NCBI RefSeq assembly: GCF_950100655.1
Contig: NZ_CATNLY010000001.1
Coordinates: 558,001 to 622,000 of the forward strand
Source: Pleomorphomonas sp. T1.2MG-36
GTDB taxonomy: Bacteria; Pseudomonadota; Alphaproteobacteria; Rhizobiales; Pleomorphomonadaceae
DNA length: 64,000 nt
Direction: 5' to 3'
In this document: positions 23,530 through 29,497 of the stretch, piece by piece
Numbering within the stretch: the stretch's first letter is position 1
Layout of the letters: each line of letters begins with the position of its first letter
Program-made: the position numbers and the translations under genes
Notes under the pieces: model-generated
Database searches by the model: none
What the model was told of the DNA's origin: nothing
Seen by the model: the letters and a program-made list of their open reading frames with translations, nothing else

Positions 23530-23700
23530 TCCCGGCTCCTTGAACGCCCGATGCGCATTTGCTCTTCAGCCCCGTGGCTCGGATCAGGCCGCGACCCCAC
23601 GGGAAATGGCTAAAAAGCAATGAATTCCGCATAGACCTTCCTGACCATAATCAATTAACGCTTGCGTGCAATAGTGGTCGGCATCTTTACGGGGGATGTC

Positions 23701-24279
23701 ATGTATCGCGCCTTCGCCCTGTTGGGATTGTCCGTATGTCTGACTGTAGCGGCGCCCGCATTGGCCGCGACGGACGATCATCCCGGCTTTGACAACGTTC
23801 CGATGCGACCGTCTCTGGCATCGAACGACCGTGCCGACCAGTTGGCAATGACGGTACTGCCCGCCGCGGACATCGCCGAGGCGCTCGGTTCCGGCCCGGC
23901 GACCCGGCAAGCCCTCGGTCCGAAGGTTTTGGTCCGCGTCGACATCTCCTCGCAGACCATGACCGTTCTGGTCCGAGGCAAGGTCGCCCACACCTGGAAG
24001 GTATCGACGGCAGGCCGCGGCTACGTCACGCCCACCGGGTTCTGGACGCCCTATCGCATGCACACCATGTGGCACTCCCGCAAATACGACAACGCGCCGA
24101 TGCCGCACTCCATATTCTTTCATGAAGGGTATGCGATCCACGCGACGCCATACGTCAAGCGCCTCGGCAAGCCGGCCTCGCATGGCTGCGTTCGCTTGCA
24201 TCCTGACAATGCCAAGGCACTGTTCGCCTTGGTGAGGCAGTACGGCCCATCGGCGGTGCGCATCTCCGTCGAGCAGTGA
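23701..24279 (+). CDS. L,D-transpeptidase (YkuD family)
   Basis: With ATG 23701 the protein has 192 residues: a signal peptide (RAFALLGLSVCLTVAAPALA), a linker of about 60 residues, then a YkuD catalytic domain starting VLVRVDISSQTMTVLVRGK and ending with the active-site motif KPASHGCVRLHPDNAKAL (Cys about residue 164, His two before). Such enzymes form 3-3 peptidoglycan cross-links or anchor outer-membrane proteins, in the periplasm. The domain is short and complete. No LysM or peptidoglycan-binding domain is attached. Confidence 0.9.
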   Translation: MYRAFALLGLSVCLTVAAPALAATDDHPGFDNVPMRPSLASNDRADQLAMTVLPAADIAEALGSGPATRQALGPKVLVRVDISSQTMTVLVRGKVAHTWKVSTAGRGYVTPTGFWTPYRMHTMWHSRKYDNAPMPHSIFFHEGYAIHATPYVKRLGKPASHGCVRLHPDNAKALFALVRQYGPSAVRISVEQ

Positions 24280-24892
24280 CCCCTCGCGCAATTCCGAACC
24301 CCGAGCCCGACAGTTGGCGAGCGAGCCTTCTTCAAGGGCATTCCTGACGTCCTCTGCAGAATCGTCCATGACAACGGTGTCATAGACAAGCAATCGTCCA
24401 TGCACGGACTGAGGGTCGAGCGAAAACGATTCAAGCTGGAATGGCAGGTTGGCTCGTTGCCAATAAAACCGATTCAGGTTCATCAGGGCATTTGCGTAGA
24501 GAGTTTTGAAACTCTCCAAAGCCCGCTTCCGCTTCCATAACCGTCACCGACATTCAAAAATTCTTTCGGTGGGTTTTAGGCAAGGTTTATGCTGCGGTGC
24601 AGCATAGACCGTTTTTTGAGCGCATTACCTCAAATTTCACCTCATACAAGCCAAAAGACGGCAAACATGCGGCCATGGCTCCGTCGAAAGTCGTATTTCG
24701 GCCGCATTCGAAGCTGTGGAGGACGATCTCCGTCACCCCTGAATGCTGCTGCGCGAAAACTGCATTCCTGACATGCAAGTCCCCCTCTAGCCCTGCATGC
24801 CTCGTTCGCCTAATTATCGGGGTGTCGAGAGCGAAGCGCAGCAGACGACAGACTGAAGAGCGCAGCGCCTCACAACCCGAATGGATGATGAA
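24280..24892. other. Long intergenic region before the DUF1127/small-RNA locus
   Basis: This 613-bp stretch contains a strong terminator at 24584-24617 and the leader of the DUF1127 gene. Codon-like composition on the minus strand at about 24290-24519 lacks a stop before it runs antisense into the L,D-transpeptidase gene, so it is not called as a gene. I find no convincing sigma-70, RpoH or EcfG promoter by eye. Confidence 0.5.
24584..24617 (+). terminator. Rho-independent terminator 300 bp beyond the L,D-transpeptidase gene
   Basis: GGTTTATGCTGC (24584-24595) pairs with GCAGCATAGACC (24599-24610), one mismatch, followed by G and six Ts (24612-24617). It points rightward and so ends either a long 3' untranslated region of the L,D-transpeptidase mRNA or an unseen small RNA. 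Confidence 0.75.
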
Positions 24893-25042
24893 ATGCTGGA
24901 CACCGTTGTCAACAAGCTCCGCTCCTACCGCAAGTACCAGGAGACCTACCGCGAGCTGTCTCGTCTGAGCACCCGCGAGCTTGCCGACCTTGGCATCTCC
25001 CGCGGTGAAATCTCGAACGTCGCCCGCAAGGCCACGCTCTGA
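24893..25042 (+). CDS. DUF1127 microprotein upstream of CCUCCUCCC RNA array
   Basis: The 49-residue, Arg-rich product reads MLDTVVNKLRSYRKYQETYR, then ELSRLSTRELADLGISRGEI, the classic DUF1127 pattern with LSxRELADLGIsRxeI. An in-frame ATG four codons earlier (24881) is possible. In Rhodobacter sphaeroides the DUF1127 protein CcaF1 (RSP_6037) is co-transcribed with the CcsR1-4 small RNAs and acts as an RNA-binding protein under stress. Here the same order is seen: the gene ends 13 bp before the first CCTCCTCCC stem-loop. It is too short to be picked up by usual length cut-offs. Confidence 0.88.
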   Translation: MLDTVVNKLRSYRKYQETYRELSRLSTRELADLGISRGEISNVARKATL

Positions 25043-25055
25043 TCCCACGAAATTA

Positions 25056-25422
25056 GGCTCGCCAGCCGAACTATCCTCCTCCCAGTTCCGCGGCGACCCT
25101 GATAGACACCCTGCCGGTTCCTCCTCCCTCCGGCCGGTGTCTTGGAAAGATGGTCCTCCTCCCCCATCTTTCTCTTAGGCGATGATGGTCCCCTCCTCCT
25201 CCCTGGACCATTTCGCCGGTTTTGTGAGTACCGACCTGCCCTTCCTCCTCCCTGGGCAACGTCGGTTTGGTCGTGGCAATCCTCCTCCCTTGCTACGACC
25301 GTCCTGCGATGCTCCTCCTCCCGCATCGCAGGTTAGCTGTAGCGGCATACCTCCTCCCATGCCGTCTACAGAAAATTGCAGCGCCCACCGGATCTCCTCC
25401 CCCGGTGGGCGTTTGCATTTTG
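25056..25422 (+). ncRNA. Array of nine stem-loops with CCUCCUCCC loops (cuckoo/CcsR-type small RNAs)
   Basis: Nine consecutive hairpins lie at 25056-25098, 25106-25140, 25145-25172, 25178-25217, 25231-25265, 25269-25300, 25303-25332, 25337-25371 and 25382-25411. The first eight display CCTCCTCCC in the loop (motif starts 25075, 25120, 25155, 25195, 25244, 25281, 25314, 25350); the ninth has CTCCTCCC and is the terminator. Stems differ completely in sequence (for example CCTGCGATGC/GCATCGCAGG in the seventh) while the loop is constant, so structure plus loop is under selection. The family is the cuckoo/CcsR RNAs of alphaproteobacteria, whose motif matches the anti-Shine-Dalgarno sequence. Processing into single-hairpin RNAs is expected from R. 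sphaeroides, where four copies exist. Confidence 0.88.
25382..25422 (+). terminator. Terminator hairpin closing the small-RNA array
   Basis: CGCCCACCGG (25382-25391) pairs perfectly with CCGGTGGGCG (25402-25411), followed by TTTGCATTTT. Its loop is a variant of the array motif. Confidence 0.75.
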
Positions 25423-25503: not shown

Positions 25504-26895
25504 ATGACCAATCAGCCCCATGCCCCCATTCATATCGTCGGCGCCGGCCTCGCCGGTTCGGAAGCCGCCTGGCAACTCGTTTCCCGCGGCATTCCAGTCG
25601 TCCTCCACGAGATGCGGCCGCATCGCGAGACCGAAGCGCACAAGACCGGTGGCTTTGCCGAACTGGTTTGCTCCAACTCCTTCCGCTCCGATGACCACGA
25701 GAACAACGCCGTCGGTCTGCTTCACGAGGAAATGCGCCGCGCCGGTTCGTTGATCATGGCCTCGGCCGACACCAACAAGGTTCCGGCGGGGGGCGCGCTG
25801 GCGGTCGACCGGGACGGATTCTCCGAAAAGATCACCGCTTCGCTGCGCACCCACCCACTCGTCACCGTCGCCGAGGGAGAGGTGGACGGACTGCCCCCCG
25901 AGAGCTGGGGCGATGTGATCGTGGCCACCGGGCCACTCACGTCACCGGCGCTGGCCGACGCCATTCGCGCCACCACCGGAGCCGCTTCGCTCGCCTTCTT
26001 CGACGCGATCGCCCCGATCGTCCATTTCGACAGCATCGACATGGACAAGGCCTGGTTCCAATCGCGTTACGACAAGCCGGGACCCGGCGGCACCGGCGCC
26101 GACTATATCAACTGCCCACTGGACCGCGAACAGTACGAAGCCTTCGTCGATGGGCTGCTCGCCGGCGACAAGACCGAGTTCAAGGATTTCGAGAAGACGC
26201 CCTATTTCGATGGCTGCCTGCCGATCGAGGTCATGGCCGAACGCGGCCGGGAGACGTTGCGTCACGGCCCGATGAAGCCGGTCGGCCTCACCAATCCGCG
26301 CAATCCCACGGTGAAGGCCTATGCCATCGTCCAGCTTCGCCAGGACAATGCGCTCGGCACGCTTTACAACATGGTCGGCTTCCAGACGAAGCTCAAGTAT
26401 GGCGTTCAGGCCGACGTCTTCAGGATGATCCCGGGGCTTGAGAAAGCCGAGTTCGCTCGGCTCGGCGGTCTCCACCGCAACACCTATCTCGACAGCCCGC
26501 GCCTGCTCGATCCGGTGCTTCGCCTCAAGGCCGCCCCGCGTCTCAGATTCGCGGGCCAGGTCACCGGATGCGAGGGCTATGTCGAATCGGCTTCGATCGG
26601 CCTTCTGGCCGGTCGCTTCGCAGCCGCCGAGCGGCTCGGCACGACGGCCGTCCCGCCGCCGCCGACCACCGCGCTCGGCGCGCTTCTCGGCCACATCACC
26701 GGTGGCCATATCTCCGCGGAGGCAGAGGGCGCACCGCGCTCCTTCCAGCCGATGAACATCAATTTCGGGCTCTTCCCACCCGTCGAGGTGCCCAAGGAGC
26801 CCGGCCAGCGGTTACGCGGCAACGAGAAGACCATAGCCAAACGACAGGCGATCTGCCGCCGCGCGTTGGTCGACCTGGCCGGCTGGCTCGGCTGA
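25504..26895 (+). CDS. trmFO: Methylenetetrahydrofolate--tRNA-(uracil-5-)-methyltransferase
   Basis: TrmFO makes 5-methyluridine 54 in tRNA using methylene-THF and FADH2, in place of SAM-dependent TrmA. The 463-residue flavoprotein opens with the dinucleotide-binding motif [20 protein letters not shown], then [19 protein letters not shown] with the conserved cysteine, [16 protein letters not shown], and ends with [12 protein letters not shown] and [11 protein letters not shown]. Length and blocks are complete. TrmFO occurs in Firmicutes and many alphaproteobacteria. Confidence 0.95.
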
Positions 26896-27010: not shown

Positions 27011-29338
27011 ATGCAGACGATGGCTGCTGGCGGGTTGCTTCGGGTTTTGCGCCGCGTGAACGGATTGGTTCTCCGGCCCGCGAGCTTGCCAGCCCTGATC
27101 GCCCTCGTCGCCGTCGGACTGCTCGGACTGCTCGCCGACTACCAGAACCATCAGTTGTTCGAACAACACGCACGGGCGACCGTCGCCGATCGCCTGTCCG
27201 TCATTCGCGCGCGCCTTGAGGGCAACATCAGCCGAGACATCCAGATCGGCCGAGGGGTTGTTGCCGCCTTCGCCACTCGTCCCACTCTGGACAAGAACGA
27301 GTTCACCGTTCTCATCGAGCATCTCCTCGAAACCGGGTCCGATCTTCGCCTGATCGCCGCCGCCCCGGACATGGTTGTCGGCATGGTCCATCCACTCCTC
27401 GGCAACGAGAAGGTGATGGGCCTCGACTACATGAAAACGCCCGGCCAACGTGACAACGTCCTCCGGGCCAAGGCGACCGGCAACCTCGTGCTGGCCGGCC
27501 CGCTTGAGCTGGTTCAGGGAGGCGTGGGCATCGTCGGGCGTTTCCCCGTCCTGGTCGATCAGCCAAGCGGACCGCCGGCATTCTGGGGCATTGTCTCGGC
27601 GGTGATCGATGTCGACCATCTTTATGCCAACAGTGGAATAACCGCCGCCGATTTCGATCTCGATCTCACCATACGCGGCCGTGACGGAAAGGGCGCCGAC
27701 GGCGAGGTCTTCTTCGGCTCGGAAGACGTGCTGACGCGCAATCCGCTTGTCACGACGGTCAGCATTCCCGGCGGCACCTGGCAGCTTGCCGCAACACCGA
27801 AGGGAGGCTGGCCCGAGCCGCCAAACACGGCGGCCTTCCGACTGATGATCGCCTTGATCGGCGCGCTCGTCGTATTGCCCATCCTGATTACCGGCCATCT
27901 CTATGCCGAGCGTCGCCGTAACCTCGACGAACTCAGCGAAGCCAAGAGGCTTGCCGAGGCCCGCAACGCCCAGCTCGAAGAAGCCAACCGGCGTGTCCGG
28001 CACACTTCGCTGCACGACGAACTGACCGGACTGCCCAATCGCCGCTACCTCATGGACCACCTCGGCCGTCTCGATTCCGAAATTGGGGCAACGACGGATC
28101 GGATCGCCATCCTTCATATGGATCTCGACCGCTTCAAGCAGGTCAACGACGCCTATGGACATGCGGCCGGCGACCGCCTTCTCCAGCATGCCGCCGACCT
28201 CATGCGCGTCGTGTTCCGGCCCGACGATATCGTGGCCCGCATCGGCGGCGATGAATTCGTGGCCGTTTGCATCGCCGACGAACCGGAAGAGCTGGCCCGA
28301 GCGCTGGCCGACGAGCTGATTGCCGGCTTCCGCCATCCGATCGATCTCGGCGAGATTCGATGCCGCAGCGGGCTCTCGATCGGCATCGCCTGCTCCGCCC
28401 CTCGAAAGAGCCAGTCGCACAAACTCCTGATCGATGCCGACATCGCTCTTTATCGGGCGAAGAAGCTCGGTCGCAATCGCCTCGAGTTCTTCACCAGGGC
28501 ACTTGAAGCCGAAGTGGTCAGTGCCAAGCGTTTGGCCGACGAGGTTCTGACGGGCATCGAGGAAAGCCAGTTTACCGCCCACTACCAGCAACAGTTCGAC
28601 GCGTCGACGCGCGAGATCGTCGGTCTCGAAGCCCTGATCCGCTGGAATCATCCGACGGAAGGTTTGATCGCGCCTGCCCGCTTCCTCGAAGTGGCGGAAG
28701 ACATCGGCGCCCTGCCCGTTCTCGACCATCTCGTGTTGGAGACGGCCCTCGTCGACCGGCGACGCTGGGTGGCCGCCGGCCTGAGAGTGCCGAGAATCGC
28801 CGTCAACGTGTCGATGGGCCGACTTCGCAACGAACGCCTGATCGAGACGATCGAGGCGATGACGATCGAACCGGGAGCGCTGGCCTTCGAGCTGACCGAG
28901 GCGATCTATCTGGACGACAGCGACGAGGTCGTTTCGGGAAACATTCGCGGCCTCAAGGAACTCGGGATCGAGATAGAGATCGACGACTTCGGGACGGGCT
29001 ACGCCTCCATCGTCAGTCTGATGCGCCTGCAGCCGAAGCGTCTCAAGATCGCCCGCCAACTGACCGCCGCGGTGTCGTCTTCCGTCGCGCAACGCCAGCT
29101 CATTCAGTCGATCGTCGAGATCGGACGCACGCAGGGCATCGGCGTCGTCGCCGAGGGCGTCGAAACCATGGAACAGGCGGATATCCTACGGGATCTCGGC
29201 TGCCAGATCTTGCAGGGCTTCGCGCTTGGCCGACCGATGGACGCCGGCCGGCTGGCTTCCCTGATGCGCCTTCAAGGTCAGGTCTTTCGTCCGGAGGCGA
29301 ACGGCGGGTTGCTTGTTTCCGACGACGATCAGAGCTAA
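27011..29338 (+). CDS. Membrane CHASE-type sensor with GGDEF and EAL domains
   Basis: The 775-residue protein has a membrane helix (residues about 24-42), a periplasmic CHASE-like domain to about residue 270, a second helix (FRLMIALIGALVVLPILITG), a coiled coil, then GGDEF and EAL domains. The cyclase motif is intact (ARIGGDEFVAV), with an RxxD inhibitory site (RPDD) five residues before it. The EAL domain has GLEALIRWNHP, IEIDDFGTGYAS and GVVAEGVET, all expected of an active phosphodiesterase. It should therefore make and degrade c-di-GMP in response to an extracytoplasmic signal. ATG 27020 is an alternative start. Confidence 0.92.
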   Translation: MQTMAAGGLLRVLRRVNGLVLRPASLPALIALVAVGLLGLLADYQNHQLFEQHARATVADRLSVIRARLEGNISRDIQIGRGVVAAFATRPTLDKNEFTVLIEHLLETGSDLRLIAAAPDMVVGMVHPLLGNEKVMGLDYMKTPGQRDNVLRAKATGNLVLAGPLELVQGGVGIVGRFPVLVDQPSGPPAFWGIVSAVIDVDHLYANSGITAADFDLDLTIRGRDGKGADGEVFFGSEDVLTRNPLVTTVSIPGGTWQLAATPKGGWPEPPNTAAFRLMIALIGALVVLPILITGHLYAERRRNLDELSEAKRLAEARNAQLEEANRRVRHTSLHDELTGLPNRRYLMDHLGRLDSEIGATTDRIAILHMDLDRFKQVNDAYGHAAGDRLLQHAADLMRVVFRPDDIVARIGGDEFVAVCIADEPEELARALADELIAGFRHPIDLGEIRCRSGLSIGIACSAPRKSQSHKLLIDADIALYRAKKLGRNRLEFFTRALEAEVVSAKRLADEVLTGIEESQFTAHYQQQFDASTREIVGLEALIRWNHPTEGLIAPARFLEVAEDIGALPVLDHLVLETALVDRRRWVAAGLRVPRIAVNVSMGRLRNERLIETIEAMTIEPGALAFELTEAIYLDDSDEVVSGNIRGLKELGIEIEIDDFGTGYASIVSLMRLQPKRLKIARQLTAAVSSSVAQRQLIQSIVEIGRTQGIGVVAEGVETMEQADILRDLGCQILQGFALGRPMDAGRLASLMRLQGQVFRPEANGGLLVSDDDQS

Positions 29339-29497
29339 GGAAAGCCTCGGTCGGCAGTTCACCGAGGCGTCGCTGTCCCTCAAGGGAAGCTAAACCTGCC
29401 AGTTCCCATCGGAAGTCGACGGACACTCCTCTCGTGCCCCGCCGCAAGTCAGCGACCAGCGACAATCAGCGATGATCGGCACGTGCGAGGATAAGCC

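Follow-up and report, generated by a model that had tools for sequence, protein, structure and literature searches.

Behind a gene for a small DUF1127 protein, the genome of the soil bacterium Pleomorphomonas sp. T1.2MG-36 carries a tight run of stem-loops that nearly all display the same loop, and the locus raises the question of what this array is, how it may be controlled and whether its length sets it apart. The analysis covered a 64-kb stretch of the genome (64,000 nt, referred to below as the window, to which all coordinates refer) and related loci in other genomes. Published work is cited throughout from excerpts of the papers.

A DUF1127 gene followed by nine hairpins

The DUF1127 gene was located at 24881–25042 on the + strand (53 aa from the first ATG; Pfam PF06568, E = 2.1e-14). 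Relatives align from the ATG at 24893, giving a 49-aa protein in agreement with the 49-codon gene proposed in an initial annotation of this DNA. A YkuD-domain gene (23662–24279) lies upstream, and a GidA-family gene at 25504, which we read as trmFO, lies downstream of the array. Elsewhere in the window, an Rfam COG3860 RNA motif (RF02940, 76.9 bits) was identified at 29348–29401, just 3′ of a long ORF (27011–29338) that, judged from its translation, looks like a GGDEF/EAL gene.

The stop codon of the DUF1127 gene ends at 25042, and nine hairpins occupy 25052–25421 on the same strand. All nine loops contain CTCCTCCC (the ninth copy begins at 25394) and eight contain the full motif CCTCCTCCC, whose eight occurrences in the window are all on the + strand, at 25075–25358; shuffled windows held a mean of 0.71 copies (maximum 4), and none reached eight. 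Every motif folds into a hairpin loop of 10–13 nt, with 10–19 pairs per hairpin and bulges interrupting some of the stems. The hairpin detector returned nine, compared with a mean of 2.4 and a maximum of 6 in 100 shuffles with the motifs held in place, and the minimum free energy of the array was −177.6 versus −110.6 (sd 5.9) in flank shuffles (z = −11.3). Motif count, folds and shuffles thus confirmed the initial annotation of nine hairpins with eight identical loops, and ruled out an origin by chance or low complexity. The motif-pair pattern was absent from the rest of the Pleomorphomonas sp. T1.2MG-36 genome.

Hairpin 1 (25052–25103, loop motif at 25075–25083) has the outer stem ATTAGG/CCTGAT and is followed by hairpins 2 (25104–25142, motif at 25120–25128), 3 (25144–25173, motif at 25155–25163) and 4 (25179–25216, motif at 25195–25203). 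The longest single-stranded linker between hairpins (25217–25229, + strand), which contains a UUUU run and is a candidate RNase E site, separates these from hairpins 5 (25230–25266, motif at 25244–25252), 6 (25269–25300, motif at 25281–25289), 7 (25303–25332, motif at 25314–25322) and 8 (25337–25371, motif at 25350–25358). Hairpin 9 (25373–25421, 18 pairs) has the variant loop ATCTCCTCCC, as annotated, which retains CTCCTCCC, and is probably the 3′ end hairpin of the transcript. Its designation as a terminator was not confirmed: it is missing from the results of the terminator scan, which does not allow loops as long as this one, and the tail following it, GTTTGCATTTTG, is only weakly U-rich. 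The stems had been described as unrelated, and indeed no pair of hairpins exceeded the shuffled maximum of similarity; recent hairpin duplication within this array was rejected on the same result.

Conservation and covariation in relatives

The Pleomorphomonas group was sampled with 14 genomes (the source genome and 13 others). A full run of eight exact motifs was present in 9/14, fewer exact motif pairs were found in four (G006, G007, G010 and G012), and G011, which is 86% complete, gave no motif match. In the wider family, motif pairs occurred in G014, G017, G018 and G019, and none was found in G015 (86% complete) or G016 (99% complete). In G010 (L017, L036), a metagenome-assembled genome (MAG), hairpin 5 is fused to the DUF1127 frame by a deletion, and the last hairpin is cut; the genome being a MAG, this may be an assembly error rather than a natural variant. 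Because of the fusion, G010 (L017) was left out of the alignment, as was G011 for want of a match, leaving 12 arrays (alignment A1).

The stem covariation anticipated for relatives was found in this alignment: 31 of 114 stem pairs showed compensatory change on both sides, compared with 6.8 in shuffles, none of which (0/500) reached as high a number. Displacing the partner by 1–3 columns left only 2–11 pairs with two-sided change. RNAalifold, working from the alignment alone, returned the same nine hairpins together with a short closing helix, and 32/116 of its pairs changed on both sides. Of the 41 cells with two-sided change, 28 belong to G006 and G007, the two most divergent rows, without which eight pairs remain. 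On the reference structure 95.5% of alignment cells were paired, a figure that is favoured by the structure having been taken from the source array's own fold, itself one of the aligned sequences.

Variation was distributed very unevenly, affecting 7/72 columns of the loop motif (mostly in hairpin 2), 120/228 of the stems and 48/56 of the linkers. The stems are therefore conserved in structure and not in sequence, as described for cuckoo RNAs. An exception is the outer stem of hairpin 1, ATTAGG/CCTGAT, which is invariant in 12/12 arrays and whose CCTGAT half is also found 3′ of the first motif in family f43 genomes; this stem may serve a separate function.

That the hairpins are real and their loops under selection is, in our judgement, nearly certain. 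The motif does resemble a CCT-like repeat, as a low-complexity or assembly artefact might, but separate assemblies of the group show the same array after the same gene, with covarying stems, and this explanation is refuted. A purely structural 3′ UTR, in which the hairpins would chiefly shield the DUF1127 mRNA from 3′ exonucleases and the loop sequence would be secondary, is in keeping with the very stable fold (z = −11.3). However, protection does not explain a near-invariant loop motif beside changing stems, and the same loops occur without a DUF1127 gene nearby (see below), so that we consider this reading highly improbable.

Relationship to known RNA families

The initial description of a cuckoo/CcsR-like array with an anti-Shine-Dalgarno (aSD) motif behind a DUF1127 gene was borne out. 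As in the cuckoo/α-r14 family (Rfam RF02344; SmelA075, SmelA099, NfeR1), adjacent hairpins expose CCUCCUCCC in their loops on variable stems; at least two such hairpins define the family, and here eight carry the full motif and the ninth CTCCTCCC. The covariance search that had been proposed succeeded for one part of the array: the Rfam ar14 model (RF02344) matched 25297–25417, starting at hairpin 7, spanning hairpin 8 and covering most of hairpin 9 (81.1 bits, gathering cut-off 58.8), whereas hairpins 1–6 lay outside the match. Members of the family are described with 2–4 hairpins per RNA (PMC4504443), and the number of modules is said to vary, with three- and four-hairpin cases given (PMC3927594). 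Since the single run of nine hairpins that follows a protein gene here exceeds this range, we classed the array as a long variant of the cuckoo family and not as a standard member. The LsrB-type box found upstream (see below) is like that reported for NfeR1, an α-r14 RNA that is activated by LsrB and uses three redundant aSD loops to silence ntrB (PMC10746234).

In gene order the locus resembles the CIN1-type CcaF1-CcsR1-4 operon of Rhodobacter sphaeroides, with CcsR-like hairpins directly downstream of a DUF1127 gene and in the same orientation (PMC10253847). The DUF1127 protein of that operon, CcaF1, binds RNA and contributes, together with RNase E, to CcsR processing (PMC10253847). It is longer, at 71 aa versus 49–53 aa here. 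The R. sphaeroides homologue RS0680a is presumably one of the CcsRs. Two aSD stem-loops are attributed to RS0680a (PMC3927594), and since the four CcsRs are RNAs and not hairpins, the R. sphaeroides transcript likely carries about eight hairpins. A hairpin count more than double that of this model system, as originally claimed, is consequently doubtful, the more so as the DUF1127 loci sampled here have runs of between 2 and 14 hairpins.

Promoter region and a VtlR/LsrB-type box

Alignment of 13 upstream regions revealed a conserved promoter block at 24743–24777 (+ strand). It includes GCATTCCTGACAT (24762–24774, +), an exact match to the VtlR/LsrB-type LysR box GCAT-N3-TG-N3-T, which has been proposed for Brucella and Agrobacterium and is present in the Sinorhizobium abcR1 promoter (PMC7486931, PMC8844928); the box sits inside a palindrome, TGCAT-N7-ATGCA (24761–24777). 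A putative sigma70-type core promoter follows at 24787–24815 (+), composed of a weak −35 element (CTAGCC, 24787–24792), 17 nt and a −10 element (CTAATT, 24810–24815); a generic sigma70 scan did not list it. Transcription would, at a guess, start near 24822, which would place the box at about −60 to −48; the position reported at abcR1 is −61 to −49.

Control by the heat-shock sigma factor RpoH was considered on the model of the stress array of R. sphaeroides, which the initial annotation had cited, and the shared gene order speaks for it, the ccaF1-CcsR genes having an RpoHI/RpoHII promoter (PMC10253847). In contrast to that operon, no RpoH-like core was seen at the Pleomorphomonas locus: on a consensus reading only, CTTG is absent from 24741–24880, which argues against an RpoH promoter, and the conserved block instead fits a LysR box, about 60 nt upstream of the putative start, together with a CTANNT −10 element. 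The RpoH promoter was accordingly rejected as a candidate, and a CcsR-like array under RpoH is, in our view, quite unlikely. With a box that lies upstream of the putative core promoter and is conserved in the group, as in the LsrB/VtlR regulon, we consider it reasonably likely that the locus is under LsrB control.

The strict box has seven fixed bases and occurs in the window five times on the + strand and four times on the − strand. It was present in 20 of 41 regions upstream of array-linked DUF1127 frames (recognised by a sequence expression, in some cases several per locus), compared with a mean of 0.36 and a maximum of 4 for 200 permuted boxes; as 11 of the 20 carriers belong to the Pleomorphomonas group and three to Stappia, the number of independent carriers is far below 20. 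Near the source array, a near-copy of the box, GCATTCCTGACGT, was also seen at 24338–24350 (+), about 420 bases upstream and just past the YkuD-domain gene.

A weight matrix for which Pleomorphomonadaceae and Stappia supplied six box variants (p values from 200 single-base shuffles) matched 34/41 array-linked upstream regions at p ≤ 0.05, including 16/20 at loci that had not contributed to the matrix (L043 and later), and all array-linked matches fell 173–265 nt before the conserved DUF1127 motif within the scanned stretch of 60–330 nt. A looser box-like form precedes most of the Rhodobacterales arrays tested; it reads TGCATRGCNGCATTG and is similar to the Brucella motif CAATGCAGCCATGCA (PMC12595884) when the latter is reverse-complemented. 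Matches were also obtained in 8/15 DUF1127 upstream regions without a detected array (two of them contigs of the G010 MAG), and the box may therefore belong to DUF1127 promoters in general and not to the array. VtlR is reported to activate DUF1127 genes (PMC12595884), and the AbcR sRNAs and VtlR/LsrB-activated DUF1127 genes of Brucella, Agrobacterium and Sinorhizobium share the box with the array; in the excerpts, small-protein genes and sRNAs of those systems are treated as separate, whereas here one locus joins a DUF1127 gene to an aSD array.

LsrB in the source genome and LsrB-like proteins elsewhere

In the source genome a LysR gene directly follows trxB (L184:887–1780, − strand), and the best PDB match of its product is 9HH1, the LsrB of A. 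tumefaciens (448 bits, with the next match at 120). The genome thus clearly appears to encode an LsrB orthologue. A LysR gene was also sought near the AbcR-like RNA (RF00519, C51); the adjoining gene is suhB-like, as named from its translation, and no LysR gene was recognised there.

The LsrB query was then compared with eight genomes chosen for holding arrays. Identity was 89% in Chthonobacter and 72% in Stappia, and the six Rhodobacterales genomes, chosen for their long arrays, each held an LsrB-like protein (L193–L198) of 45–48% identity (264–291 bits); the second-best protein in each scored at most 130 bits. In the six Rhodobacterales proteins the DNA-binding stretch was identical at 49–52 of 65 positions (75–80%). 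No trxB-like frame was found within about 3 kb of these six genes. LsrB has been called unique to Rhizobiales on the basis of a small tree (PMC11975290), which conflicts with carrying it over to Rhodobacterales; the Rhodobacterales proteins would be either divergent orthologues or a sister group.

Array length across DUF1127 loci

Genome contigs were scanned with the DUF1127 protein, producing 54 loci with a bias towards close relatives of the query, and hairpins were counted mechanically (minimum stem 5 pairs, maximum loop 17). Two or more cuckoo hairpins in a run were present in 38/54 loci, the runs comprising 2 to 14 hairpins; among the 16/54 loci with no run were a contig-end piece, some Rhodobacterales (Rubricella, Amylibacter) and gammaproteobacteria. 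Ten full-length loci of the Pleomorphomonas group (L026–L035) had nine hairpins by the detector, except for P. koreensis with eight, and runs of eight and four were seen in Chthonobacter and Rhizobium vallis, respectively. In Stappia (L040, L041, L042), three successive DUF1127 genes are each followed by their own set of two or three hairpins, the strict VtlR/LsrB box being found at the first of the three genes only. Rhodobacterales loci with a run had 4 to 14 hairpins, for instance 14 in Pseudoprimorskyibacter insulae, 13 in Aquimixticola, 12 in Pararhodobacter, 11 in a Rhodobacter and 10 in Gemmobacter. With natural runs spanning 2 to 14, nine hairpins are not exceptional, and the longer runs rule them out as a record.

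Stem similarity was assessed at 11 loci, nine of which contained at least one pair of hairpins above the shuffled maximum, the source array and L039 having none. Similar hairpins in Rhodobacterales are often four or two positions apart, a spacing suggestive of block duplication. In this the Pleomorphomonas array, which bears no trace of repeated blocks, differs from the long arrays tested in Rhodobacterales. Near-identical hairpins were seen in the long arrays L058, L063, L071, L073 and L078, and in L078 they are adjacent.

An order-wide scan gave matches in 51/249, and in a class-wide scan for three exact motifs the source genome was the sole match among 289. Outside this order, runs of three exact motifs are thus rare; the class-wide scan is, however, no measure of distribution, since many Rhodobacterales loops deviate from the exact CCTCCTCCC (e.g. 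CTCTCCTCCTC) and few genomes were drawn per family.

Cuckoo triplets on viral contigs

IMG/VR viral contigs were scanned for three exact motifs, yielding 65 loci (L080–L144), 51 of which had at least three hairpins by the detector. No DUF1127 frame was recognised by sequence expression within 600 bases upstream of any of these 51 triplets. The strict box was found in 31/51, its position relative to the first loop being −73 in every case, and a one-base variant was seen by eye in another nine; the box hence accompanies cuckoo triplets without a protein gene as well, as is the case for NfeR1. Many of the triplets are near-identical, and some of the 51 (e.g. L086, L114, L136 and L139) resemble coding or low-complexity repeats and not cuckoo RNAs. 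The triplets on viral contigs are either phage-borne or bacterial flank.

Proposed mode of action

Gene, hairpins, covariation, loop conservation, box and the presence of LsrB are observed, and from these we propose the following model. The LysR-type regulator LsrB/VtlR would activate one sigma70-type promoter upstream of the DUF1127 gene, producing a single transcript that encodes the small protein and whose 3′ part forms the nine hairpins, the loops of which would present the aSD sequence. RNase E, assisted by the DUF1127 protein, may release processed pieces, as reported for CcaF1/CcsR. The hairpins, or pieces of them, would pair with many mRNAs at start regions containing GGAGG(AGG) and prevent their translation, the redundant loops setting the dose and the stems merely holding the loop open, which would allow them to drift by compensatory change. 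What we infer is that the locus is transcribed, activated by LsrB and processed, and how it binds and to which targets; as a whole the model has, at best, slightly better than an even chance of being right.

The initial annotation had left the choice between a sponge and a translation regulator, and the published NfeR1 data favour start-site occlusion (PMC10746234), which by analogy is probably the mechanism here too. The pattern GGAGGAG-N2-13-ATG had 171 matches in the genome versus 69 for a reversed control, a site with two ATGs being counted twice; the difference suggests that the preferred targets could include some hundred extended sites. Pairing between the loop and the start region of the DUF1127 gene itself is weak (−3.9 kcal/mol, rank 27/37 among 36 mechanically chosen long ORFs plus DUF1127), and there is thus no sign of self-regulation. 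Self-immunity through a missing Shine-Dalgarno sequence was also considered and is not convincing, in view of this rank and of the moderate Shine-Dalgarno sequences seen by eye in other families.

Alternatively, the loops could act as a decoy that titrates a CCUCC-binding protein (DUF1127 or another), the array buffering that protein and not silencing mRNAs. Many identical loops would fit such a role, as would the hairpin run at 38/54 DUF1127 loci and the RNA binding of CcaF1, which influences the maturation of the CcsRs (PMC10253847, PMC12501420). On the other hand, NfeR1 loops pair with mRNA in reporter tests (PMC10746234), and the viral-contig triplets stand without a DUF1127 frame in the 600 bases upstream. 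Some DUF1127 proteins, moreover, act by protein contact, as on PhoR, and for YjiS no RNA binding was found (PMC12501420). We therefore regard a protein decoy as unlikely, and start-site occlusion as the preferred reading.

Implications

The locus type (DUF1127 plus cuckoo, 'CIN1') and the RNA family are already known. In the open-licence literature we did not find the range of array lengths (2–14), an LsrB-type box before DUF1127-cuckoo arrays or LsrB-like proteins in array-carrying Rhodobacterales, any of which may be in print in the primary cuckoo/CcaF1 papers outside that scope.

The observations also leave room for a bolder, tentative proposal, to which we give clearly less than an even chance: an LsrB-type redox regulator and DUF1127-aSD arrays may belong to a single ancient regulon shared by Rhizobiales and Rhodobacterales. 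Loop number (2 to 14) would then be an evolvable setting of the dose with which translation is braked globally, and LsrB would not be restricted to Rhizobiales. The locus joins two literatures that, in the excerpts cited, are treated apart, namely that on Rhodobacter CcaF1-CcsR arrays and that on rhizobial LsrB/NfeR1/AbcR regulation. If the model of LsrB control is true, a redox LysR regulator would set, from one promoter, the output of both a DUF1127 protein and many identical ribosome-site blockers, and the arrays found in nature, with their 2 to 14 loops, would provide a ready dose series for distinguishing action on specific mRNAs from a general brake on translation.
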